Position numbers and translations under genes: made by a program
Part shown: positions 51,395-63,835 of the stretch, piece by piece
How positions within the stretch are numbered: the stretch's first letter is position 1
Layout of the letters: each line of letters begins with the position of its first letter
Source of the DNA: Shinella curvata
Lineage (GTDB): Bacteria > Pseudomonadota > Alphaproteobacteria > Rhizobiales > Rhizobiaceae
Assembly: GCF_022899935.1 (NCBI RefSeq)
Contig: NZ_JALJCJ010000008.1
Location: forward strand, 186,001 to 250,000
DNA length: 64,000 nucleotides
Reading direction: 5' to 3'
Notes under the pieces: model-generated
What the model saw: the letters and a program-made list of their open reading frames with translations, nothing else
Told to the model about the DNA's origin: nothing
Databases searched by the model: none

Positions 51395-52513
51395 ATGAAC
51401 GCTGTCCCCAAGATGCAGTTCGATACGTCGCATTTCGACAAAGCTCGAGCTCCGGTTGTTTCCTGCCGGAACGTCTGGAAGGTCTTCGGACACAAGTCTG
51501 TCGTTGACCGGATTCTAGGCGACCTTCTTGCCGAGAACATCGACGTGGAGCGCGCGCGCCGAGAGCATGGCTGTGTCGTGGCGGTGAAAGGCGTCAGCTT
51601 CGACGTCCGTCCGTCCGAGGTTTTCTGCATCATGGGGCTGTCGGGCTCGGGAAAATCGACCCTGATCCGTCATGTCAACCGTCTTATTGAGCCGACGGCC
51701 GGAGACATCCTCGTCGATGACTGCTCTATTTCCGCCCTTGATGCCAAGGCATTGCGAGAACTGCGCGCCCGCAAGATCGGGATGGTCTTCCAGAACGTGG
51801 CGCTCCTCCCGCACCGAACCGTTGAAGAAAATACGTATCTTCCGCTCGAATTGCGTGGCGAAACAGGTGCTGCCGCACATGCGGCGGTCCATCAGGCCCT
51901 GTCGATCGTCGGGCTTGCTGGTTGGGAAGATCGGTACCCGAGCGAACTTTCCGGCGGCATGCAGCAGCGTGTGGGATTAGCGCGGGCGCTTGCGGCGGAC
52001 GCCGACATTCTCCTGATGGATGAACCATTCAGCGCGCTGGATCCATTGATCCGTAAACAGTTGCAGACCGAGTTCCGGCGGCTTGCCAAAACGCTCGGCA
52101 AGACGGCCCTTTTCATTACCCACGACCTCGACGAAGCGATCCGTATTGGCGACCGGATTGCGATCATGCGCGATGGGCAGATCGTGCAGACAGGATCGCC
52201 CGCCGAGATCGTGCTGTCGCCTGTCAACGACTACGTCGCCCAATTCGTCGAGGGCATATCGCCGGTTCATTTTGTCGATGCCGAGCGCATCATGGTGCCT
52301 GCAACGCAGTATCCAGCGCACGCCGCTGCCCTTTTGGCCTCAGTCGTGCCGGAAGGATGGCCGGTCTGCGAACGAGGCACGCTGCTTGCCAAGCTCATTG
52401 TCCTGCAAACCGAAAGTGACCGCCCGATTGCCATCGTCGATGGCGGTCTCGTCATCGGCGTTGTCGGGCCTCGGGAAATTCTGATCGCCGTCGGCGGGCA
52501 CGAAAAAAGATAG
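51395..52513 (+). CDS. proV: Glycine betaine/proline-type ABC transporter ATPase (ProV-like)
   Basis: A 372-residue ATPase of the quaternary-amine importer class. Walker A GLSGSGKST lies near residue 82, the signature LSGGMQQRVGLARAL near 185 and Walker B ILLMDEPFSALD near 205, then the DLDEAIRIGDR switch. The long N-terminal lead before Walker A (VWKVFGHKSV) is typical of ProV/OpuAA. A C-terminal region of about 90 residues is in the place of CBS domains. It starts a three-gene importer followed by an LLM monooxygenase, so catabolic uptake rather than osmoprotection is plausible. Confidence 0.9.
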   Translation: MNAVPKMQFDTSHFDKARAPVVSCRNVWKVFGHKSVVDRILGDLLAENIDVERARREHGCVVAVKGVSFDVRPSEVFCIMGLSGSGKSTLIRHVNRLIEPTAGDILVDDCSISALDAKALRELRARKIGMVFQNVALLPHRTVEENTYLPLELRGETGAAAHAAVHQALSIVGLAGWEDRYPSELSGGMQQRVGLARALAADADILLMDEPFSALDPLIRKQLQTEFRRLAKTLGKTALFITHDLDEAIRIGDRIAIMRDGQIVQTGSPAEIVLSPVNDYVAQFVEGISPVHFVDAERIMVPATQYPAHAAALLASVVPEGWPVCERGTLLAKLIVLQTESDRPIAIVDGGLVIGVVGPREILIAVGGHEKR

Positions 52514-52527
52514 AAGGAGACGTGCCT

Positions 52528-53763
52528 ATGGCCTTTCAGCCTGCCGATACGGCGACGTTAAGCACAGCATTACCGGCACGTCGAAGCGCCGGGAAAGCGT
52601 CCGTCCTCCATTTTGCCGACCAGCTGGTCGGGCCTCTCCGTTTCTCGGCACAGCCAAGGCGCTTCCTGCTGCTGTATCTGCTTGCGGATGGGGCTGCGGT
52701 TTGGCTTGCGATGCAGGAGCTTTTCGTCGCTATGCTTGTTGTCTTCAGTCTATCGCGCTGTACGGTGGTCGCGCTGGTCCACCTTGCCGGGCCGGAGGCA
52801 AAACTCCGTCGTGAGGCCGTCGCGGCGCGACGGCCTTGGGTCGAGGTCTTGCTCTATATCTTCAGCTTGGCGACCATCGTTCTCGCCAACATGACAGGGC
52901 CGATCGCAGCGCAGCTTTCCACATTTCCGTCGTCGCAGTTTACGCGAGTTACGGCCGCGGCCTCTATCGACGCAACGGTTACTTATCTCACCGTGCATGG
53001 CGATGTCTTCTTTCGGATCGTGACACGCTGGCTTCTGGCGCTTCTGAAGGGACTGGAGAGCGTGCTGACATTGTCGCCATGGCCGGTCATTTTTGCCGTC
53101 GTCGGATTTGCCGCGTGGAAGCGGGGTGGGGCGGGGCTGCTCGTCCTGGTCTGGATGGCGCTCGGCTATCTGGGGCTGTTCGGATATTGGTCGGAGGCAC
53201 TGCAGACCTCCGCACTGGTGCTGGCATCGCTCTGCGTGTGTGTCGCCATCGGTATCCCGGCGGGGATTCTGCTTGCGAAAAGCCCGGCTAGCCGTGCAAT
53301 CGCGTCACCCGTTCTTGACCTTATGCAGACCATGCCAAGTTTTGTCTACCTGTTGCCGGCGGTCGCATTTTTTTCAATCGGCAAACCGCCAGCGCTGATC
53401 GCGACGGTGATTTTCGCATTGCCACCTCTCGTCCGGCTGACATGCCTCGGCATCGAGCAGGTTCCGTTGCATGTGCGTGAAGCGATGCAGGCGCATGGGG
53501 CCACGCCGCTGCAGATGCTGCTCAAGGCGGAACTCCCCCTGGCACTGCCCTCCATCCGCACAGGCATCAACCAGACGATCATGATGTGCCTGTCGATGGT
53601 CGTCGTCGCCGCGCTGATCGGGGGTGGCGGGCTCGGCTACAACGTTCTCTTCGCACTGCAGAATGTCCAGTACGGCGAAGGCATCCTGGCGGGCCTGGCA
53701 ATCGTTTTCTGTGCCGTGCTGTTCGATCGCCTAGCAGGCAGCGGCCGCAAGACGGACTTTTGA
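52528..53763 (+). CDS. proW: Glycine betaine/proline-type ABC transporter permease (ProW-like)
   Basis: A permease of about 411 residues with a hydrophobic N-terminal extension and the conserved permease core in the C-terminal half (ALVLASLCVCVAIGIPAGI near 230, MQTMPSFVYLLPAVAFF near 265, EAMQAHGATPLQML as EAA loop near 320). ATG at 52528 is preferred to GTG at 52522 because AAGGAG lies 8 nt before the ATG. It forms the channel for ProV and the receptor encoded next. Confidence 0.9.
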   Translation: MAFQPADTATLSTALPARRSAGKASVLHFADQLVGPLRFSAQPRRFLLLYLLADGAAVWLAMQELFVAMLVVFSLSRCTVVALVHLAGPEAKLRREAVAARRPWVEVLLYIFSLATIVLANMTGPIAAQLSTFPSSQFTRVTAAASIDATVTYLTVHGDVFFRIVTRWLLALLKGLESVLTLSPWPVIFAVVGFAAWKRGGAGLLVLVWMALGYLGLFGYWSEALQTSALVLASLCVCVAIGIPAGILLAKSPASRAIASPVLDLMQTMPSFVYLLPAVAFFSIGKPPALIATVIFALPPLVRLTCLGIEQVPLHVREAMQAHGATPLQMLLKAELPLALPSIRTGINQTIMMCLSMVVVAALIGGGGLGYNVLFALQNVQYGEGILAGLAIVFCAVLFDRLAGSGRKTDF

Positions 53764-53794
53764 TTCCATTCGATACAACAAGGGGAACAATGAA

Positions 53795-54817
53795 ATGCAG
53801 ATGAAAAAACGGATCCACGCGTTCGCACTTGCCGGCGTCCTTGCGCTCATTCAGCCTCTAGCCGCAGATGCCGGAGAAAAGATCGTGCTGGCCGACCTCA
53901 CTTGGGACGAGCCGAGAGCGGTGAACGCCGTTCTCGCCGAGATCCTCACCAACACCTACGGTGCCGAGGTCAGTCTTATTGCAGCCGACCAGACGGCGAT
54001 CTTCGCGGCGATGGGGAAAGGCGACGGTTCCGTCGATGTCCATCCTGCGGTCTGGTCCGGTGCACAGCAGAGCAATATCGACCGTTTCGTCACCAGCGAG
54101 GGCAAGGTGAGGCTGAATGCCAAACCCTATGATGCCACCGATGGATTCTATGTCCCGAAGTTCTTTGCCGAGCAGCATGGCATCAAGTCGATCGAGGACC
54201 TGAAGAAGCCGGAAATCGCTGCGCTCTTCGATATCAATGGTGATGGCCGTGGCGACTACTGGCCGGGTGCTCCGGGTTGGGGCGTGACCAATATCTACCG
54301 GGTCAAGGGTGTAAGCTACGGACTGGAGGAATTCTACGACCCGATCGTTGCCTCCGACGCTTTGATGAAGACGCAGCTTGCCAGCGTCGAGGCGAAGAAA
54401 ACGAACGGCCTGCTGTTCTATTACTGGAAGCCGGAAGCGCTACATCAGGCTTTTGAGCTGACGCAGCTCGAGGAGCCGGCATTCGATGGCTTTGCAATGG
54501 AAAGCAAGAAGGGCACGCCGGAGTACAAGGCCGATGGTTGCTACAACTATGTCGATCCGAAAGACTCGCCGGATTGGCTGAAACAGAGCCGCATCACCTG
54601 CGCGACGCCACCGCAGCCGATCTACATCGCCTATTCGTCCTCGCTTGAACAGCGTGCGCCGGAAATCGCTGCGTTCCTGAACAAGGTTGCGATCGAGCCG
54701 AGCGAAGTCGGGGCGTGGATCTATTCCATGACGATCGACAAGAAAGATCCTGCCACCGTGGCCAAGGAGTGGGTCTCCGCGAATCCGGAGCGCGTCAAAT
54801 CCTGGACCGGCAAGTAA
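53795..54817 (+). CDS. proX: Glycine betaine/choline-type ABC substrate-binding protein (ProX/OpuAC-like)
   Basis: A 340-residue receptor with a Sec signal peptide (about 1-26, ending ADAGEK). Family features include LADLTWDEPRAVNAVLAEIL, GDGSVDVHPAVW, GAPGWGVTNIYRV and YYWKPEAL, with aromatic residues of the kind that cage quaternary ammonium groups. It completes the importer. A GC hairpin follows at 54845-54867. The linked monooxygenase suggests that the ligand is a compound to be oxidised, perhaps an N-methylated amine; this is inference. Confidence 0.88.
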   Translation: MQMKKRIHAFALAGVLALIQPLAADAGEKIVLADLTWDEPRAVNAVLAEILTNTYGAEVSLIAADQTAIFAAMGKGDGSVDVHPAVWSGAQQSNIDRFVTSEGKVRLNAKPYDATDGFYVPKFFAEQHGIKSIEDLKKPEIAALFDINGDGRGDYWPGAPGWGVTNIYRVKGVSYGLEEFYDPIVASDALMKTQLASVEAKKTNGLLFYYWKPEALHQAFELTQLEEPAFDGFAMESKKGTPEYKADGCYNYVDPKDSPDWLKQSRITCATPPQPIYIAYSSSLEQRAPEIAAFLNKVAIEPSEVGAWIYSMTIDKKDPATVAKEWVSANPERVKSWTGK

Positions 54818-54939: not shown

Positions 54940-55974
54940 GTGGATTTCAACTATTTCCTGACCAGCTATCTCCCGACGAAGGAGTTTGGCGGCGAGCGGC
55001 TCTATAGCGATATGATCGAGCAGGCGCTTCTTGCGGAGCGTCTCGGTTTTCGCTCCGTTTCAATCCCCGAACACCACCTAGTCAATGTGCTCCTGGTGCC
55101 TTCCCCGTTGCAAATGGCCGTGAAGATCGCCAGCCTGACGAGCCGTGTCGAGATCACGACGGCGATCGTCGTGTTGCCGGTCCGCGACATGCGCATCTTT
55201 GCGGGTGAGGTGGTGCAGGCGGACATCTTGTGCAATGGCCGCCTCGTGCTTGGCGTCGGTCGCGGTGCGTTTGCCTACGAGGTCGAGAGGCTGGGCACGC
55301 CAATCACCGAGACGCGGCAGAAATTCGACGAATCCTTTGATGTGCTCAGCGCCCTCCTGTCGCGGGAAGAGGTTTCCTGGGACGGCAAATATTATCGCTT
55401 CGAGCCGATTACGATCATGCCGCGGCCGGTGCGGCGGATCCCGATGATGGTCGCGGCCATGGCGCCGGAGGCAATCTACGCCGCAGCCAGCCGCGGCCTG
55501 AGCGTCCAGACGACGCCGCTGCAGGAATCGAATTCGGTTCTGCTGGAGCAGGTCGACGCGTTCAAGCGCGGCAAGGCGACGGCCGGGAAAAAAGGCAAGA
55601 ACAGCCGGCTCTCCTTGCAGCGTGTTGCTTATGCCGCGCGCGATGAAGCCGATGCAAAGCGCTGCATCGCGCTGATCCACGAATACTACAAACGGTTCGA
55701 CAATGTTTTCTCCGGCCCGGGCATCGTGAACAATGGGCTTATCGAGCCGCTTCCCCGCAAGCAGACGTTGGAGGAGCTGGAACGCAATGTTCTGGTGTGT
55801 CCACCGGCTGAAATGATCGACCGTTTGGGCGCCTATGAAGAAGCAGGCATCGACGAGGTCATCCTTAGCGGTGGGTTCGGACAGAGCCAGGCGGACATGC
55901 TTGAAATGATGCACCGCTTCGCATCGGAAGTCGCACCACACTTCGCCAAGAGCAACTTGAACGCCGTCGCGTGA
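54940..55974 (+). CDS. LLM-class flavin-dependent monooxygenase (first copy)
   Basis: A 344-residue luciferase-like TIM-barrel enzyme that uses reduced FMN and oxygen. Conserved parts: SIPEHHLVNVLLVPSPLQ near residue 41, DMRIFAGEVVQADILCNGR near 82 and LGVGRGAFAYEVERLGTP near 104, with REEVSWDGKYYRFEPITIMP near 141. It starts with GTG at 54940 after AAGGGA. It is close to the LLM at 59813-60847 (same length, no gaps, roughly 60% identity by eye). No reductase is adjacent; the flavin reductase at 58767 may supply both. Confidence 0.9.
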   Translation: MDFNYFLTSYLPTKEFGGERLYSDMIEQALLAERLGFRSVSIPEHHLVNVLLVPSPLQMAVKIASLTSRVEITTAIVVLPVRDMRIFAGEVVQADILCNGRLVLGVGRGAFAYEVERLGTPITETRQKFDESFDVLSALLSREEVSWDGKYYRFEPITIMPRPVRRIPMMVAAMAPEAIYAAASRGLSVQTTPLQESNSVLLEQVDAFKRGKATAGKKGKNSRLSLQRVAYAARDEADAKRCIALIHEYYKRFDNVFSGPGIVNNGLIEPLPRKQTLEELERNVLVCPPAEMIDRLGAYEEAGIDEVILSGGFGQSQADMLEMMHRFASEVAPHFAKSNLNAVA

Positions 55975-56188: not shown

Positions 56189-56836
56189 TCAATTCGTCGG
56201 CTGAATAACGGGGTGTTCCTTGGCGGGGAGGACTGCGTTGACCAATCTGATGCAGCCTTCAAGGCCATTGCGAATGGATGCGTCGTCGTGATGACGTTCC
56301 CAGTCGAGCCAGAGGCCGTCGAGCATTGCCATGATGCTGTCGGCGAGAAGGGCTACGTCGCCGTCGGTACCCTGCCTTTCTTCTCGCACCGTCTGAAGCA
56401 CGTCTACCAGATTCAGACGATAGCGGTCGTACAGTTCACGCTCGGTCTCCGCGATTTGCGCATGGGAAAGTGCCGCAGACCAGAGATCGACACGCACGCG
56501 CAGGTATTCGTGTTTGAGAAAGGCCGAACTGAAGCCCGTACCTAGAAAGGCCTTCAGCTGCTCGATCGGCGTTTTCGAAGAGCGGCTGACATCCTGAAAC
56601 GTCGCGTCCAGCAGGATGCGTGATGCGTATCGGTAGGTCTCCACCAGCACCTCATTCATGTCCTTGAAGTGGTAGGTGATATGGCCGAGCGAGATATTCG
56701 AGTGCTCAGCGATTTTCCGGGCGGTCAGCTTCGCATATCCGACATCCTGGATGCATTGGAAAGCCGCCTCGATGATTTCCGCCCGCCGATCCTCCGAGGA
56801 GCGAAAGGTGCGTTGCTTCTTCTTGGCTTCCGTCAC
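56189..56836 (-). CDS. TetR-family transcriptional regulator (BetI-like)
   Basis: A 215-residue regulator. The N-terminal helix-turn-helix is LTARKIAEHSNISLGHITYHF near residue 37, and a helical ligand domain follows with a C-terminal MLDGLWLDWERHHDD segment like BetI. It is divergent from the family 5 receptor operon; two GTAC...GTAC palindromes lie in the gap. It probably represses that operon and, through the copy at 50210-50244, perhaps a second promoter. The inducer is likely the imported compound or a product. Confidence 0.88.
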   Translation of the reverse strand: MTEAKKKQRTFRSSEDRRAEIIEAAFQCIQDVGYAKLTARKIAEHSNISLGHITYHFKDMNEVLVETYRYASRILLDATFQDVSRSSKTPIEQLKAFLGTGFSSAFLKHEYLRVRVDLWSAALSHAQIAETERELYDRYRLNLVDVLQTVREERQGTDGDVALLADSIMAMLDGLWLDWERHHDDASIRNGLEGCIRLVNAVLPAKEHPVIQPTN

Positions 56837-56957
56837 ACTGCATCCTTTTCATCTATTTGCGCGACATAATCTTCGCTGATCGTGCTTCAGGCAAGAGCAT
56901 GACCTGCCACATTTGCGCGCCATCCCAGTCTCGTTCTCCTAAGTCACACTTTCCGTG

Positions 56958-57008
56958 TTGACAAGGCAATTGGTACAGATGTACAAAACGAATATCGTAC
57001 GGATGTAC
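56958..57008 (+). promoter_or_regulatory. Promoter with paired TetR-type operators (copy B)
   Basis: TTGACA (56958-56963), 17 nt, then GTACAA. Palindromes GTACAGATGTAC at 56973-56984 and GTACGGATGTAC at 56997-57008 cover the spacer and the start region, 24 bp apart. They precede the family 5 receptor gene by 54 bp and lie opposite a TetR gene. Confidence 0.7.
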
Positions 57009-57062
57009 AAATATTCGACGTTGCGGCCTCGCGCTGAAGCGGGGCCATGGGGGGTTAAGGGA

Positions 57063-58655
57063 ATGAGCAATTTTGACTGGGATCGTCTCTCCAAAGGTAA
57101 CGTCTCCCGACGGGGGATGCTAAAGGGTGCAGCCGCTATTGGCGGCGCAGTAATGCTCGGTGGGCTCGCGTTGCCGCGGATGGCGCGGGCTGAGCCCACG
57201 CGCGGCGGCACGCTCACCATGGGCCTGGGCGGCGCCAATACGACCGACACTCTCGACCCAGCGCTTGCCTGGGACGATTTCATGATGGCTCTCAGTTACG
57301 GCGGCCTGCGCAACAATCTTGTCGAGCTCGATGCGGATGGCAATGCGGTTGGCGAGCTGGCGGAAAGCTGGGAATCGAGCACAGACGCCAAGACCTGGAT
57401 CTTCCGCCTGCGCAAGGGTGTCGAATTCCACAATGGCAAATCGCTGGACGTCAACGATGTGGTGGCGTCGATCAACCATCACCGGGGCGAGAAGACGACG
57501 TCGCTCGCCAAGAGCATATTTTCGCAAATCGCCGACGTGAAGATCGAAGATGCGGGAAGCGTCCGTATCGAACTTGCCGCCGGCAATGCAGACCTCGCCA
57601 TTCTCCTGTCCGACTATCATGTCGGCATCATGCCGGCCAATGCGGATGGCAGTGTCAACTGGCAATCGGGCATGGGCACCGGCGGCTACAAGCTAGAGAA
57701 CTTCGAACCGGGCGTGAGGGCCACGGCGACGCGCTTCGCCAACTACTGGAAGCAGGGGCGTGCCCATGCCGATGCGGTCGAACTCATTGCGATTAACGAT
57801 GTCACTGCGCGCCAGAGCGCGCTGGTCACCGGTCAGATCAACGTGATGAACCGCGTGGACCTTAAAACCATCGCCCTCCTGCAACGCGCCGGCAAGGTGC
57901 GTGTCGACGAGGTGCAAGGATACTGCCATGCCACCATGCCGATGTTGGTCGACGTTAAGCCGTACGACGACAAGAACGTAAGGATGGCCTTGAAATACGC
58001 GATCGACCGCGAGCAATGGGTTGCGACGCTTCTGCAGGGCCATGGCGTCGTGGGGAATGACCACCCGATACCCGCAAACCAGCGCTATTTCAATTCCGAG
58101 TTACCACAGCGGGCCTATGATCCCGATAAGGCGAAGCACTACTTGAAGCAGGCGGGCCTCGACAACCTGTCGGTGGAGCTCAGCGCATCGGACGCGGCCT
58201 TCGCGACCGCCGTCGATGCGGCTGTGGTGTTCAAAGAATCCGCTGCCGCTGCCGGTATCGATATCAACGTGAAACGCGAACCGAGCGACGGCTATTGGAG
58301 CAACGTGTGGGCGAAAAAACCGTTCTGCACGTGCTACTGGACCGGGCGGCCGACACCAGACGCCATTTTTTCGCTGATCTACGCGAAGGGTGCGTCCTTC
58401 GGCGATACCCGTTGGGACAACGAGCGTTTCAACGGCCTTCTCGTCGAGGCTCGCGCGGAACTCGACGAAACCAAGCGCAAGGACATGTATGGTGAGATGC
58501 AAACCATCCTGAGCGACGACGGCGGCACCATCGTCCCGATGTTCATGAACTACGTCAACGGTCTCGGCGAAGCCGTCCAGACCCCGGAACGCCAGAGCGC
58601 CGATTTGCCGCTCGATGGCATGAAGGCGATCGAGCGCTGGTGGGTCACAGCCTGA
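57063..58655 (+). CDS. ABC transporter substrate-binding protein, family 5 (Tat-exported)
   Basis: A 530-residue DppA/OppA-type receptor with a twin-arginine signal (NVSRRGMLKGAAAIGG near residue 13). Family pattern: LDPALAWDDFMM near 63, WIFRLRKGVEFHNGKSLDVND near 117 and a late RWDNERFNGLLVEARAELDE segment. Start at ATG 57063 follows TAAGGG; the upstream frame runs through the operators and is rejected. It opens the operon with flavin reductase, LLM, tautomerase, hydrolase and Dpp-type channel genes, so its ligand should be their substrate. Paralogue of the orphan receptor at 46526-48109. Confidence 0.9.
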   Translation: MSNFDWDRLSKGNVSRRGMLKGAAAIGGAVMLGGLALPRMARAEPTRGGTLTMGLGGANTTDTLDPALAWDDFMMALSYGGLRNNLVELDADGNAVGELAESWESSTDAKTWIFRLRKGVEFHNGKSLDVNDVVASINHHRGEKTTSLAKSIFSQIADVKIEDAGSVRIELAAGNADLAILLSDYHVGIMPANADGSVNWQSGMGTGGYKLENFEPGVRATATRFANYWKQGRAHADAVELIAINDVTARQSALVTGQINVMNRVDLKTIALLQRAGKVRVDEVQGYCHATMPMLVDVKPYDDKNVRMALKYAIDREQWVATLLQGHGVVGNDHPIPANQRYFNSELPQRAYDPDKAKHYLKQAGLDNLSVELSASDAAFATAVDAAVVFKESAAAAGIDINVKREPSDGYWSNVWAKKPFCTCYWTGRPTPDAIFSLIYAKGASFGDTRWDNERFNGLLVEARAELDETKRKDMYGEMQTILSDDGGTIVPMFMNYVNGLGEAVQTPERQSADLPLDGMKAIERWWVTA

Positions 58656-58766: not shown

Positions 58767-59786
58767 ATGACGCACATGTGGGTGGATGCGAACGACTGCG
58801 AACGCCGTCTCTTCCGGGACATGCTCGGCTCCTTCATGACCGGCGTCACGGTGGTGGCGACGCGTGGCGGCGATGGCGTGGTGCGAGCCTTTACCGCCAA
58901 CTCCTTCACCTCCGTATCGCTCGATCCGCCGCTGGTGCTGGCCTGCCTGGCAAAGACCTCCGGTAGTTACGATACGTTCTCCTCCGCCGAACACTTCAGC
59001 ATAAGCGTCCTTGGCGATTGGCAGCGCCAGATATCGAATGCCTTCGCCTCACGCGATCCGTTGGTGAAAGCGGATGCGCTCGCAAGGCTCGGCGGCGCCG
59101 ATGTGCCCTTCGTGGAACAAAGCCTCGCAACCATGATCTGCGCGCGCGACCGGATCATCGATGCCGGAGATCACGTCATCCTGCTCGGTGCCGTTGAACG
59201 GTTTCAGTCGAAGAACGGACAACCTCTCGGCTATTTCCGTGGCGGCTATGTCGGCTTCGGTCTTGCCGTGCGTGAACTGGAGCAGCTAGGCGCACCGCTC
59301 TTCGTTGGAGGCTTGCTCGAGCGCGAGGGAAGGGTGCTGCTCTGCCGGCGGCAGGGGAGCGATCGCTGGGAGGTGCCGGGTGCGGCGCTTTCAGCCGGCG
59401 AGCAGCATACCGGCGTGCTCCGCTCTCTGTTTGGCCGTTTCGGCATCCAGGCAGATGCCTCGCTTCTTTACTCGCTCTTCCAGGAGGAAGGAGAGCGCCG
59501 AACGACGATGATGTTCTCTGTCGAAACCAATGGTGAGGCTGAGGCTCAAAGCGCCAACGGCATCGAAGCGCGCCTGTTCGGCGTTGAGGACAGCCCCTGG
59601 GGCCTGATCGACGGCGAAATGAAGCGAGGCATGTTGCAGCGGTTCTTCCGCGAGCGGGAAGCTGGCTGTTTCGGCATCTACTACGACACCGCCGACGGGG
59701 GCCGCGTTGCGGCCCTCGACGGCAAGCCACTCCCATGGGCCGAATGGCGGCCCGGCCTGCCTGCAAAGCCGGCAGTCGCCCGCTAG
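58767..59786 (+). CDS. Flavin reductase fused to a degenerate Nudix-like domain
   Basis: A 339-residue two-domain protein. Residues about 10-165 are a flavin reductase (RutF/HpaC type: MLGSFMTGVTVVAT, FTANSFTSVSLDPPLVLACL, FSISVLGDWQ), which would make FMNH2 for an LLM monooxygenase. Residues about 180-325 look like a Nudix fold (GGLLEREGRVLLCRR, then WEVPGAALSAGEQ). In the Nudix box the glutamates of the REuxEE core are missing (LRSLFGRFGI), so pyrophosphohydrolase activity is unlikely and a ligand-sensing role is possible. The LLM gene starts 26 bp downstream. Confidence 0.82.
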   Translation: MTHMWVDANDCERRLFRDMLGSFMTGVTVVATRGGDGVVRAFTANSFTSVSLDPPLVLACLAKTSGSYDTFSSAEHFSISVLGDWQRQISNAFASRDPLVKADALARLGGADVPFVEQSLATMICARDRIIDAGDHVILLGAVERFQSKNGQPLGYFRGGYVGFGLAVRELEQLGAPLFVGGLLEREGRVLLCRRQGSDRWEVPGAALSAGEQHTGVLRSLFGRFGIQADASLLYSLFQEEGERRTTMMFSVETNGEAEAQSANGIEARLFGVEDSPWGLIDGEMKRGMLQRFFREREAGCFGIYYDTADGGRVAALDGKPLPWAEWRPGLPAKPAVAR

Positions 59787-59812: not shown

Positions 59813-60847
59813 ATGGATTTCAACCACTTCCTTTCCAGCTATCTGCCCGATCCGAGCTACGGGGGCACCCGGCTCTATCGCGACATGGTCGAGCAGGCAG
59901 TGCAGGCGGAAAAATGCGGCTACCGCGGCGTGTCGATCCCCGAGCATCACCTGATCAATATCCTGCTCGTGCCATCGCCGTTGCAACTTGCCGTCAAGAT
60001 TGCGTCGGTGACGTCGCGCATCGAACTGGTGACGTCGATCGCCGTGCTGCCGATCCGCGACATGCGGGTTTTTGCCGGCGAGGTGGTGCAGGCCGACATG
60101 CTCTGCGACGGGCGCCTGGTTCTCGGCGTGGGCCGAGGCGCCTTCGCCTATGAGGTCGGTCGTCTTGGCACGCCGATCGAGGAGACCAAGAAGAAGTTCG
60201 AGGAATCGCTTGCGGTGCTGGAAGCGTTGCTGACACGGGAGGAGGTTTCCTGGGACGGGGACTATTATACCTTCGATCCGATCACCGTTATGCCGCGCCC
60301 CGAACGCGCAATTCCGCTCATGCTGGCTGTGATGGTGCCGGAGGGTATCTACCACACCGCGCGCAAGGGCTATCATGTGCAGACTACACCACTGCAGGCT
60401 TCGCATACGATCTTGCTGGAACAGGTCAATGCTTTCCGCCGCGGCAAAATCGAAGCCGCAGCAACCGGCAAGAACAACCGCCTCGCGCTTCAGCGCGGCA
60501 TCTACCTCGCGCGCGACGCCGCCGATGCACGGGCCAAGCTCGAGCTTGCCTCCACCTACTACCAGCGCTTCGACAACGTCTACAGCGGCCCCGGCATCGT
60601 TGACCGCGGCACTATCCGTCCGCTGCCGCGTAAGCAGACGGTCGAGGAGCTTGGCCGTAGCCTGATCATCTGCGAGGCGAATGAGATGATCGATCGCCTC
60701 TCGGCCTATTCAGAGGCTGGTATCGATGAGGTGATCGTCACCTCGAATTTCGGCCAGGAGCAATCCGAAACGTTGGACATGATGGCCCGCTTTTCAGCAG
60801 AGGTCATGCCGCAGCTCTCCGGCATTCGCCAGAAATCCGTCGCTTGA
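59813..60847 (+). CDS. LLM-class flavin-dependent monooxygenase (second copy)
   Basis: A 344-residue luciferase-like enzyme, ATG at 59813 (aligned with the GTG of its paralogue; the 26-residue upstream extension overlaps the reductase gene). Conserved segments: SIPEHHLINILLVPSPLQ near residue 41, GEVVQADMLCDGRLVLGVGR near 90 and REEVSWDGDYYTFDPITVMP near 141. It forms a two-component monooxygenase with the adjacent flavin reductase. A tautomerase and a hydrolase follow, so it probably opens or hydroxylates the imported compound. Confidence 0.92.
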   Translation: MDFNHFLSSYLPDPSYGGTRLYRDMVEQAVQAEKCGYRGVSIPEHHLINILLVPSPLQLAVKIASVTSRIELVTSIAVLPIRDMRVFAGEVVQADMLCDGRLVLGVGRGAFAYEVGRLGTPIEETKKKFEESLAVLEALLTREEVSWDGDYYTFDPITVMPRPERAIPLMLAVMVPEGIYHTARKGYHVQTTPLQASHTILLEQVNAFRRGKIEAAATGKNNRLALQRGIYLARDAADARAKLELASTYYQRFDNVYSGPGIVDRGTIRPLPRKQTVEELGRSLIICEANEMIDRLSAYSEAGIDEVIVTSNFGQEQSETLDMMARFSAEVMPQLSGIRQKSVA

Positions 60848-60882
60848 ATGCGGCGCATCCCCCCTAAGATCAAGGAATGACC

Positions 60883-61098
60883 ATGCCTGTAATCAAGATC
60901 GAAATGTTTCCCGGCCGTACGCTCGAACAGAAGCGTGCCATTGCGAAGGCGGTAACCGACAGCTTCGTCGAATCCGCCAAGGCGACACCGCAGTCTGTGC
61001 ACATCATCTTCAGCGAGATCGCCCAGGACGATTGGGCCGTCGCCGGTGAACTTTGCTCCGATCGGGCAGCAGCCGCGGCGCAGGCCGAGAAGAAGTGA
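60883..61098 (+). CDS. 4-oxalocrotonate tautomerase-family protein
   Basis: A 71-residue tautomerase. ATG at 60883 is chosen over 60877 because it places Pro directly after Met (MPVIKIEMFPGR), and removal of Met exposes the catalytic Pro-1; AAGGA lies 7 nt upstream. EQKRAIAKAVTDSF is the conserved helix. The enzyme shifts enol/keto double bonds in unsaturated acids. It sits between the monooxygenase and an alpha/beta hydrolase gene, consistent with handling a ring-cleavage or oxidised intermediate. Confidence 0.87.
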   Translation: MPVIKIEMFPGRTLEQKRAIAKAVTDSFVESAKATPQSVHIIFSEIAQDDWAVAGELCSDRAAAAAQAEKK

Positions 61099-61109
61099 GG
61101 CTTTCCACG

Positions 61110-61886
61110 ATGAGCAAGGCAATTGATTGCGCCTACACGCTCGAGGGGCAGGGACCCGCTCTCTTCCTGGTCCACGGCATCGGTGCACGCAAGACCGGCT
61201 GGGCGAAGATCGTCGAACAGCTGAAGGATCAGTTCACCTGCATTTCCTATGACCTGCGCGGCCATGGGGACTCGCCACTTCCCGAGGGCCGCTTTGGGCT
61301 TAATGACCTGGTTGACGACCTGGAAGCGTTACGTGCCAGGCTCGGTATCGAGAAGGCGCATTTCGCCGGCCACTCGCTGGGCGGCATGATAGGCCCTGCC
61401 TATGCTCGTCGCTATCCCGAGCGCGTCCTTTCCCTCGGCCTGCTGTCGACGGCGGCTTTCCGCACCGAGGACGACAGTTCCAAGGTGAAAGCAGTGGTAA
61501 CGGCGATGCGCGACAAGGGGATCCCACAGATCCTCGACACGCTGACGGCGCGCTGGTTCACCGACGATTTCGCGGCCGCCCGGCCGGATGTCATCGAATG
61601 GCGCAAGAAGCAGGTCATCGATACCGACGGGGACGTGTTCCTCAACGTGTTCGACATCTATGCGGAGACCGAAATGAGCCCGTGGCTGCATGAGGTGACC
61701 GCACCATCGCTTGTGCTGACAGGCGAGCTGGATGGCGGTTGCAATCCGCGTCTCAACACGCAGATCGCCGAAGCGATGCCGAATTCCGAACTGGTCATCC
61801 TCGATGGTCTCAAGCACGCCATCCTGATCGAGGCGTCGGAGCGGGTCGGCCCGTCGATGAAGGCCTTTCTGCAGAAGCAGATCTGA
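61110..61886 (+). CDS. Alpha/beta-fold hydrolase
   Basis: A 258-residue hydrolase. The oxyanion motif VHGIG is near residue 21, the nucleophile elbow GHSLGG near 90, the acidic member near TGELDGGCNPR and the catalytic His in DGLKHAILIEASE near 240. It looks like enol-lactonase or RutD-type hydrolases. ATG at 61110 lies 11 bp after the tautomerase stop. It likely hydrolyses an ester, lactone, or carbamate-type product of the monooxygenase. Confidence 0.9.
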   Translation: MSKAIDCAYTLEGQGPALFLVHGIGARKTGWAKIVEQLKDQFTCISYDLRGHGDSPLPEGRFGLNDLVDDLEALRARLGIEKAHFAGHSLGGMIGPAYARRYPERVLSLGLLSTAAFRTEDDSSKVKAVVTAMRDKGIPQILDTLTARWFTDDFAAARPDVIEWRKKQVIDTDGDVFLNVFDIYAETEMSPWLHEVTAPSLVLTGELDGGCNPRLNTQIAEAMPNSELVILDGLKHAILIEASERVGPSMKAFLQKQI

Positions 61887-61956: not shown

Positions 61957-62910
61957 ATGCGCAACATTCTCGTTCTCATCGCCAACCGGCTCGCGACCGG
62001 CATGCTCACGCTCTGGATCGTGTCACTTATCATCTTTCTCGGTGTGTCGGCATTACCCGGTGACATCGCAACGGAGGTGCTGGGCCAGAGCGCGTCACCC
62101 GAAACGATTGTGGCTTTCCGCACCCGGCTTGGCCTGGACCTCCCGTTGCACGAGCGCTATTTTGCCTGGGTCTCCGACATTCTTCATGGAGATTTCGGCA
62201 TATCGCTCGCCAATCACCGGCCGATCGGCGAGTTGGTCTTTGGCCGCCTGTCGAGTACGGTTGATCTTGCGGTTCTGGCGGCTATCATGGCCGTGCCTCT
62301 CGCGCTCGGTCTGGGCATTCTAGCCGCGCTCTACCGCAATGGCGCGTTCGATCGGGCGATCAACCTGCTGACGCTGACCTCGGTCTCCTTCCCCGAGTTC
62401 TTCGTTGCCTATGTGCTGATCCTCTTCCTTTCGGTGAAAGCGGGCCTGCTGCCGAGTCTCGCCGGATTTAGCGGCGGCACGGTTCTCGGCCGTATCGAAG
62501 GCATGGTCCTGCCCGCCTTGACGCTGACACTGGTCGTGGTGGCGCACATGATGCGCATGACGCGCGCGGCGCTCATCGGCGTGCTCGCGAGTCCCTACAT
62601 TGAGATGGCGAAGCTGAAAGGTGTTTCTCCGATCGGCATCGTCACACGCCATGCCCTGCCGAATGCGCTTGGGCCGATTATCAATGTAGTGGTGCTGAAC
62701 CTTGCCTACCTGGTCGTCGGCGTGGTCGTTGTGGAAGTCGTCTTCGTCTATCCCGGCCTCGGCCAGTTGATGGTCGACAGTGTTCAGAAGCGCGACATCC
62801 CCGTGGTGCAGGCGTGCAGCCTGATCTTCGCCGCGACTTACATTGTCCTCAATCTGACGGCCGACATTCTAGCTACGGTGACAAATCCACGTCTGTTGCA
62901 TCGCCGATGA
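61957..62910 (+). CDS. Dipeptide/oligopeptide-type ABC transporter permease (DppB-like)
   Basis: A 317-residue permease with about six helices. The first helix is at residues 10-30, a large periplasmic loop follows, and the EAA-type loop EMAKLKGVSPIGIVTRHALP lies near 208. It is the first channel subunit for the family 5 receptor encoded at the start of the operon, 70 bp after the hydrolase. Although the class is named for peptides, members also carry many small organic compounds. Confidence 0.92.
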   Translation: MRNILVLIANRLATGMLTLWIVSLIIFLGVSALPGDIATEVLGQSASPETIVAFRTRLGLDLPLHERYFAWVSDILHGDFGISLANHRPIGELVFGRLSSTVDLAVLAAIMAVPLALGLGILAALYRNGAFDRAINLLTLTSVSFPEFFVAYVLILFLSVKAGLLPSLAGFSGGTVLGRIEGMVLPALTLTLVVVAHMMRMTRAALIGVLASPYIEMAKLKGVSPIGIVTRHALPNALGPIINVVVLNLAYLVVGVVVVEVVFVYPGLGQLMVDSVQKRDIPVVQACSLIFAATYIVLNLTADILATVTNPRLLHRR

Positions 62911-62947
62911 AATGCCGGAAAACCATGCTTCTTCCAAGGAACCGTCC

Positions 62948-63835
62948 ATGACTCCACTTGCGCGCAGCGCCGCCGGACCGTCCGCCACAGGGTGGCGGCC
63001 TTCTTTCGCCTGGATGAAGGTACTCGCGGCAGCGCCGCTGAGCGCCAAACTCGGTCTCTTCATCGTCGCCTCCTATGTTGCGGTAGCCATCTCGGCCCCC
63101 TGGGTCAGCCCCTATGGCGAGGCGGAAATCGTCGGATCGCAATTCGAACCATGGAGCGCGAGGTTCTTGCTTGGGACGGACAATCTCGGTCGCGACATGC
63201 TGACCAGGCTGGTATACGGCGCGCGGAACACAGTCGGTATCGCGTTTGCATCGACATTGCTTGCCTTTGCGGTTGGCGGCGTGCTCGGCATCTTTTCCGC
63301 TGTGGCGGGTGGGTGGCCGGATCATCTGCTGTCGCGCGCGATCGACGTGCTCATGGCGATACCGCAGCTGATCTTCTCCATGTTCCTGCTGACGATCTTC
63401 GGTATGTCCGTGCCGGTCTTGATCGCCGTCATCGCACTGGTCGATTCCACGCGTGTCTTTCGTTTGGCGCGGGCGCTCGCCATGAATGTCGTGACGATGG
63501 ACTATATCGACGTGGCGCGACTGCGCGGCGAGAGCCGCCTCTGGATCATGCGCCGCGAGATCCTGCCGAACATTCTATCGCCGCTCGTTGCCGAGTTCGG
63601 CCTGCGTTTCTGCTTCGTGTTTCTGATGATCAGCGCGTTGAGCTTCCTTGGCCTCGGCATACAGCCGCCGACGGCGGACTGGGGCTCCATGGTGCGCGAC
63701 AACGCAACGCTCATCACATATGGCGACGTCACCCCCTTGCTGCCGGCCGGCGCAATCGCCGTGCTGACGATCGGCATCAATTATCTCATCGACTGGTTCC
63801 TCGACAAATCGAGCGGCCTGCGGGAAGGACAGTGA
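62948..63835 (+). CDS. Dipeptide/oligopeptide-type ABC transporter permease (DppC-like)
   Basis: About 295 residues from ATG at 62948, which has AAGGA 6 nt upstream; an in-frame ATG at 62912 is possible. It has the DppC-type N-terminal helix, the LGTDNLGRDMLTRLVYGAR motif near residue 75 and the EAA loop DVARLRGESRLWIMRREILP near 190. It pairs with the preceding permease. Confidence 0.92.
   Translation: MTPLARSAAGPSATGWRPSFAWMKVLAAAPLSAKLGLFIVASYVAVAISAPWVSPYGEAEIVGSQFEPWSARFLLGTDNLGRDMLTRLVYGARNTVGIAFASTLLAFAVGGVLGIFSAVAGGWPDHLLSRAIDVLMAIPQLIFSMFLLTIFGMSVPVLIAVIALVDSTRVFRLARALAMNVVTMDYIDVARLRGESRLWIMRREILPNILSPLVAEFGLRFCFVFLMISALSFLGLGIQPPTADWGSMVRDNATLITYGDVTPLLPAGAIAVLTIGINYLIDWFLDKSSGLREGQ

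Follow-up and report, generated by a model that had tools for sequence, protein, structure and literature searches.

A flavin reductase fused to a Nudix-derived domain without catalytic glutamates, beside a luciferase-like monooxygenase gene of Shinella curvata

Two-component flavin monooxygenases must avoid waste of NADH and leakage of peroxide, and few reductases with built-in control are, to our knowledge, known. The locus described here raises the question of what a second domain, apparently of Nudix descent and devoid of the Nudix catalytic residues, does on such a reductase. The gene lies in a 64,000-nucleotide stretch of the Shinella curvata genome (contig NZ_JALJCJ010000008.1), called the window below, and all positions are counted from its first letter. 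The parts of the protein are as follows:

58767..59786, + strand: flavin reductase–pseudo-Nudix fusion, an in-frame ORF of 339 aa
58827..59255, + strand: flavin reductase-like domain, residues 21-163 (PF01613, 4.5e-31; motifs TANSFTSVSLDPP and GDH)
59292..59717, + strand: Nudix-derived domain without catalytic glutamates, about residues 176-317 (profile against PDB; hhalign)
59379..59447, + strand: degenerate Nudix box, residues 205-227, GAALSAGEQHTGVLRSLFGRFGI (87-domain alignment)
59640..59708, + strand: C-terminal tail, residues 292-314, with R292, E296, G303, Y305 and G312 (87-domain alignment)

The ORF starts with ATG, and GAGG is found a few bases 5' of it. The reductase half looks intact as far as sequence can tell, with its motifs present and a PF01613 (Flavin_Reduct) score of 108.5 bits that passes the curated cut-off of 27. 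The original prediction of a RutF-like flavin reductase holds for the superfamily; RutF ranks behind the nearest NCBIfam models for this half, which are HPA hydroxylase reductase, FerA and HsaB. The same prediction suggested that the protein could control electron supply to a monooxygenase, and a luciferase-like one is encoded directly 3' of the fusion gene, among the following neighbors:

54940..55974, + strand: second luciferase-like monooxygenase (PF00296, 4.5e-49), 65% identical to the product of 59813..60847
56189..56836, - strand: TetR/BetI-type regulator (domain match)
56955..58655, + strand: ABC transporter solute-binding protein (family 5) with a Tat-type signal (domain match)
59813..60847, + strand: luciferase-like monooxygenase, directly 3' of the fusion gene (PF00296, 2.7e-44)
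60877..61098, + strand: 4-oxalocrotonate tautomerase family protein, 73 aa (PF01361, 4.8e-18)
61110..61886, + strand: alpha/beta hydrolase, PcaD-like (domain match)
61957..63835, + strand: two apparent ABC transporter permease genes (ORF sequence and annotated Roseovarius gene order)

The monooxygenase at 59813..60847 is the probable acceptor of the reduced flavin. An aldehyde dehydrogenase gene lies further downstream, beyond the end of the window, and a Roseovarius plasmid has the identical gene order from the TetR gene onward. The two monooxygenase genes flank the TetR and transporter genes, and their products may be two subunits or act on two substrates.

The fusion architecture as such is common and already known from a structural genomics entry. 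PDB 3rh7, a hypothetical oxidoreductase from Sinorhizobium meliloti pSymA, is the closest solved protein, a full-length homolog over residues 11-318 (1.3e-43), has likewise lost the box, and is counted among proteins of unknown function (PMC13327496). No description of the Nudix half was found in the searchable literature. The points that are new here are the family-wide loss of the box, the common tail and the intact split counterpart.

The descent of the C-terminal half cannot be read from the single protein, which matches NUDIX at residues 183-276 with 18.2 bits, under the Pfam cut-off of 21.1, and AlphaFold on two sequences gave a model too poor for use (pLDDT 31). A family profile, made from an alignment of 21 C-terminal domains of fused homologs, matches in the PDB the C-domain of 3rh7 (4.6e-42), the zinc-ribbon NUDIX protein 3cng (3.4e-15), 3f13 (3e-7) and further Nudix chains, and hhalign of the fused C-domains with four intact zinc-ribbon Nudix proteins gives 97.8% (7e-13). 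By these matches the derivation from a Nudix domain is well supported at the level of sequence, as had been proposed. The zinc ribbon itself (PF14803) has no match in the Shinella protein in the Pfam search and is present in a relative, at the locus L103.

The state of the box was read from an alignment of 87 domains, of which 51 are fused, 14 are unfused and of the operon type described below, and 22 are unfused and housekeeping. The canonical pattern Gx5Ex7REUxEExGU is absent from the Shinella domain, where G211, S220, G223 and R224 stand at the four glutamate positions and A206 at the box glycine. The predicted loss of the catalytic glutamates is therefore complete (0 of 4). Conservation of these residues across homologs had been suggested as a check, and it bears the prediction out: no fused domain has an intact box and each holds at most one of the four glutamates (51/51), and all four are present in every stand-alone zinc-ribbon Nudix relative (36/36, operon-type and housekeeping). 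An intact box in homologs had been named as grounds for refutation, and only unfused relatives have one. A branch with SH-aLRT 94 separates the fused domains from all others in the Nudix-domain tree.

What the fused domains have kept is a C-terminal tail with the pattern R..E...G..GIY.G....G, which is common to them and to the operon-type intact domains, whereas the housekeeping ones lack it. Every one of the 51 fused and the 14 operon-type domains has R292 and E296; G303, Y305 and G312 are found in 47, 49 and 50 of the fused domains, respectively, and in all 14 of the operon type. The tail residues reach 0-32% in the 22 housekeeping relatives. Retention of the tail in both fused and operon-type domains suggests that a selected function other than hydrolysis persists, and selection, to judge from the alignment, seems to act on the tail and not on hydrolysis. 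The best-kept residues lie in this tail and not clearly in the pocket, so that docking and sensing are indistinguishable on this evidence.

The nearest intact relatives of the fused domains are stand-alone genes in an operon type that is common to many fused genes. Two families from the phylum of Shinella, f182 (perhaps Pseudomonas-like) and f189, have intact zinc-ribbon Nudix proteins with the fused-type tail, and the neighbors of these include DUF1185, a hydrolase, an aldehyde dehydrogenase, a single-domain flavin reductase, a CMD protein and a GntR regulator. The first three are present at 13/13 split loci, the single-domain reductase at 12/13, and a monooxygenase within the examined stretch at 6/13; these counts are not independent, since a single family supplies 10 of the 13 loci, selected for their closeness to one protein. 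Fisher values disregard relatedness and are not read as probabilities here. None of 12 housekeeping Nudix control loci has DUF1185, hydrolase, aldehyde dehydrogenase, reductase or monooxygenase neighbors. Matches of the split Nudix protein on Acinetobacter and Burkholderia plasmids proved to be housekeeping loci, and two of them served as controls. Because an intact, separate Nudix protein occurs in the same kind of operon, the Nudix and reductase pair probably shares a job, most likely the putative control of electron supply to the neighboring monooxygenase.

Fusion by the joining of adjacent genes of a split operon was considered, and the reductase tree does not support it. The split-operon flavin reductases are only distantly related to the fused ones and form a separate clade there, not next to them, from which it seems that Nudix and reductase were brought together more than once. 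The zinc-ribbon Nudix hydrolases (3cng; operon type L103:5962-6525) share the ancestral fold with the fused C-domain, and the operon-type one also shares the tail; they differ in that their REuxEE box is intact and a zinc ribbon occupies the place of the Shinella reductase. Tree and alignment support descent from a zinc-ribbon Nudix hydrolase, with replacement of the zinc ribbon by the reductase and a single loss of hydrolysis, at or after fusion.

Most of the Shinella protein was found in one place in 320 plasmid records, and one close relative in a scan of genome contigs; scanned viral contigs gave no relatives. The architecture is thus widespread and the gene is one member of a family, and hundreds of loci labeled merely flavin reductase gain a defined two-domain identity. 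In a census of 31 fused loci, covering a stretch of 13-17 kb at each for the monooxygenase, a luciferase-like monooxygenase is present at 29, an alpha/beta hydrolase at 28, an aldehyde dehydrogenase at 27 and DUF1185 at 24. The fused genes of L197 and L199 have none of the usual operon neighbors within 13 kb. Triple fusions of alpha/beta hydrolase, flavin reductase and dead Nudix domain, of about 600-650 aa, occur at L046, L047, L051, L081 and L108:6479-8302 (the same as L054). The reductase of L022 (G277:C38, about 36 kb) falls within the fused clade in the reductase tree and has no Nudix domain, which at least one lineage can therefore do without; the short stretch around that gene gave no monooxygenase match.

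The Shinella protein would serve as the reductase of a luciferase-type, FMN-dependent monooxygenase system of two components, and its N-terminal domain, going by family knowledge and gene order, would reduce flavin with NAD(P)H and feed the adjacent monooxygenase. We give about an even chance to the reading that the C-domain is a non-catalytic regulatory or docking module controlling the supply of reduced FMN to that enzyme. With its Nudix sheet and conserved tail it would most likely sense a pathway substrate or contact a partner, and would thereby gate the reduction or release of flavin. A wider proposal is made only tentatively. It holds that the Nudix module exists in two forms within monooxygenase pathways, as an active hydrolase encoded on its own, with a tail specific to the pathway, and as a dead domain fused to a distantly related reductase, where it may sense substrate or partner and so gate the supply of reduced flavin, and that the pairing arose more than once.

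Regulation by the C-domain is plausible in the light of two precedents. The C1 reductase of HPA hydroxylase (AbHpaC, PDB 5zc2), to which the reductase half matches with 8.7e-27, is also a flavin reductase with a C-terminal add-on; a MarR domain serves as the add-on in Acinetobacter AbHpaC, where it binds 4-HPA and lifts the self-inhibition of the enzyme (PMC10816480). The HPA reductase model NF045919 matches only residues 11-162 of the Shinella protein, and Pfam finds no MarR domain in it. The regulators NrtR and AraR have, like the Shinella protein, a Nudix domain without catalytic glutamates, reused in them for ligand binding, and that of BtAraR binds arabinose (PMC4666351). Their Nudix domain is joined to a winged-helix DNA-binding domain and not to a reductase; no winged helix was matched in the Shinella protein by Pfam. 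A dead Nudix domain on a reductase, together with intact stand-alone counterparts, makes the question of control testable by truncation and binding assays, and the structure of the full-length homolog 3rh7 is already solved.

Other readings of the domain must be weighed against regulation or docking. As a scaffold only, the dead Nudix fold and its tail would dimerise or stabilise the reductase and sense nothing. Clustering of the conserved residues in a helix and the tail offers a possible interface for this, and box and pocket are free to vary; retention of the tail in intact stand-alone Nudix enzymes that have no reductase attached speaks against it, as does the fact that many flavin reductases of the superfamily are single-domain proteins (e.g., L103:4013-4579), and we consider the scaffold unlikely. 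Binding of FMN, FAD, NAD(P)H or ADP-ribose in the former nucleotide pocket, by which flavin reduction would be tuned, is suggested by Nudix ancestry, by the weak similarity of an operon-type intact relative to NAD(+) diphosphatase (8e-12), and by the NrtR regulators, whose Nudix boxes are impaired and whose effector is ADP-ribose (PMC4666351). The pocket signatures N-P and R-x-I-x-P-R show little or no variation across the 36 intact relatives, but their residues are each kept in only 0-8 of the 51 fused domains, and the Shinella domain lacks them. Their loss argues against ordinary Nudix nucleotide binding, makes this reading improbable, and counts against the original suggestion that FMN, FAD or NAD(P)H is bound in the Nudix manner.

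Residual hydrolysis appears more improbable still. Some Nudix enzymes place their catalytic acids outside the box, and the intact split relatives in the same operon type suggest that the pathway may use hydrolysis; displaced acidic residues such as E212, one position off a box glutamate, might then still hydrolyse something. However, the box region of the 51 fused domains has no other glutamate that is conserved, about 40% of these domains have D or E at the E212 position, and the sole invariant acid is E296, in the tail. We give a non-canonical hydrolase very little credence.

The surroundings of the fusion gene bear on the substrate. The genome has a second reductase–pseudo-Nudix gene, 35% identical to the first (L071:5796-12912; G000:C15, about 166.8-173.9 kb). 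Its operon also encodes a monooxygenase, an aldehyde dehydrogenase, an alpha/beta hydrolase and DUF1185, and resembles a trigonelline-type cluster. The S. meliloti operon of 3rh7 has DUF1185, alpha/beta hydrolase, luciferase-like monooxygenase and aldehyde dehydrogenase, and we take both it and the paralog operon to resemble the tgn set for trigonelline. The trigonelline oxygenase system TgnA/TgnB has two components and opens an aromatic pyridinium ring (PMC8269262). The operon in the window differs from these. Its genes include those for a tautomerase, a PcaD-like hydrolase and a family-5 transporter, no DUF1185 was found near the fusion gene, and its monooxygenase is about 26% identical to that of the S. 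meliloti locus; it is thus not of the Tgn type. Just upstream in the window, 51395-54817 holds look-alikes of glycine betaine-type ABC transporter genes (ATPase, permease and OpuAC binding protein), adjoining a BetI-like regulator, which may hint at a betaine-like substrate.
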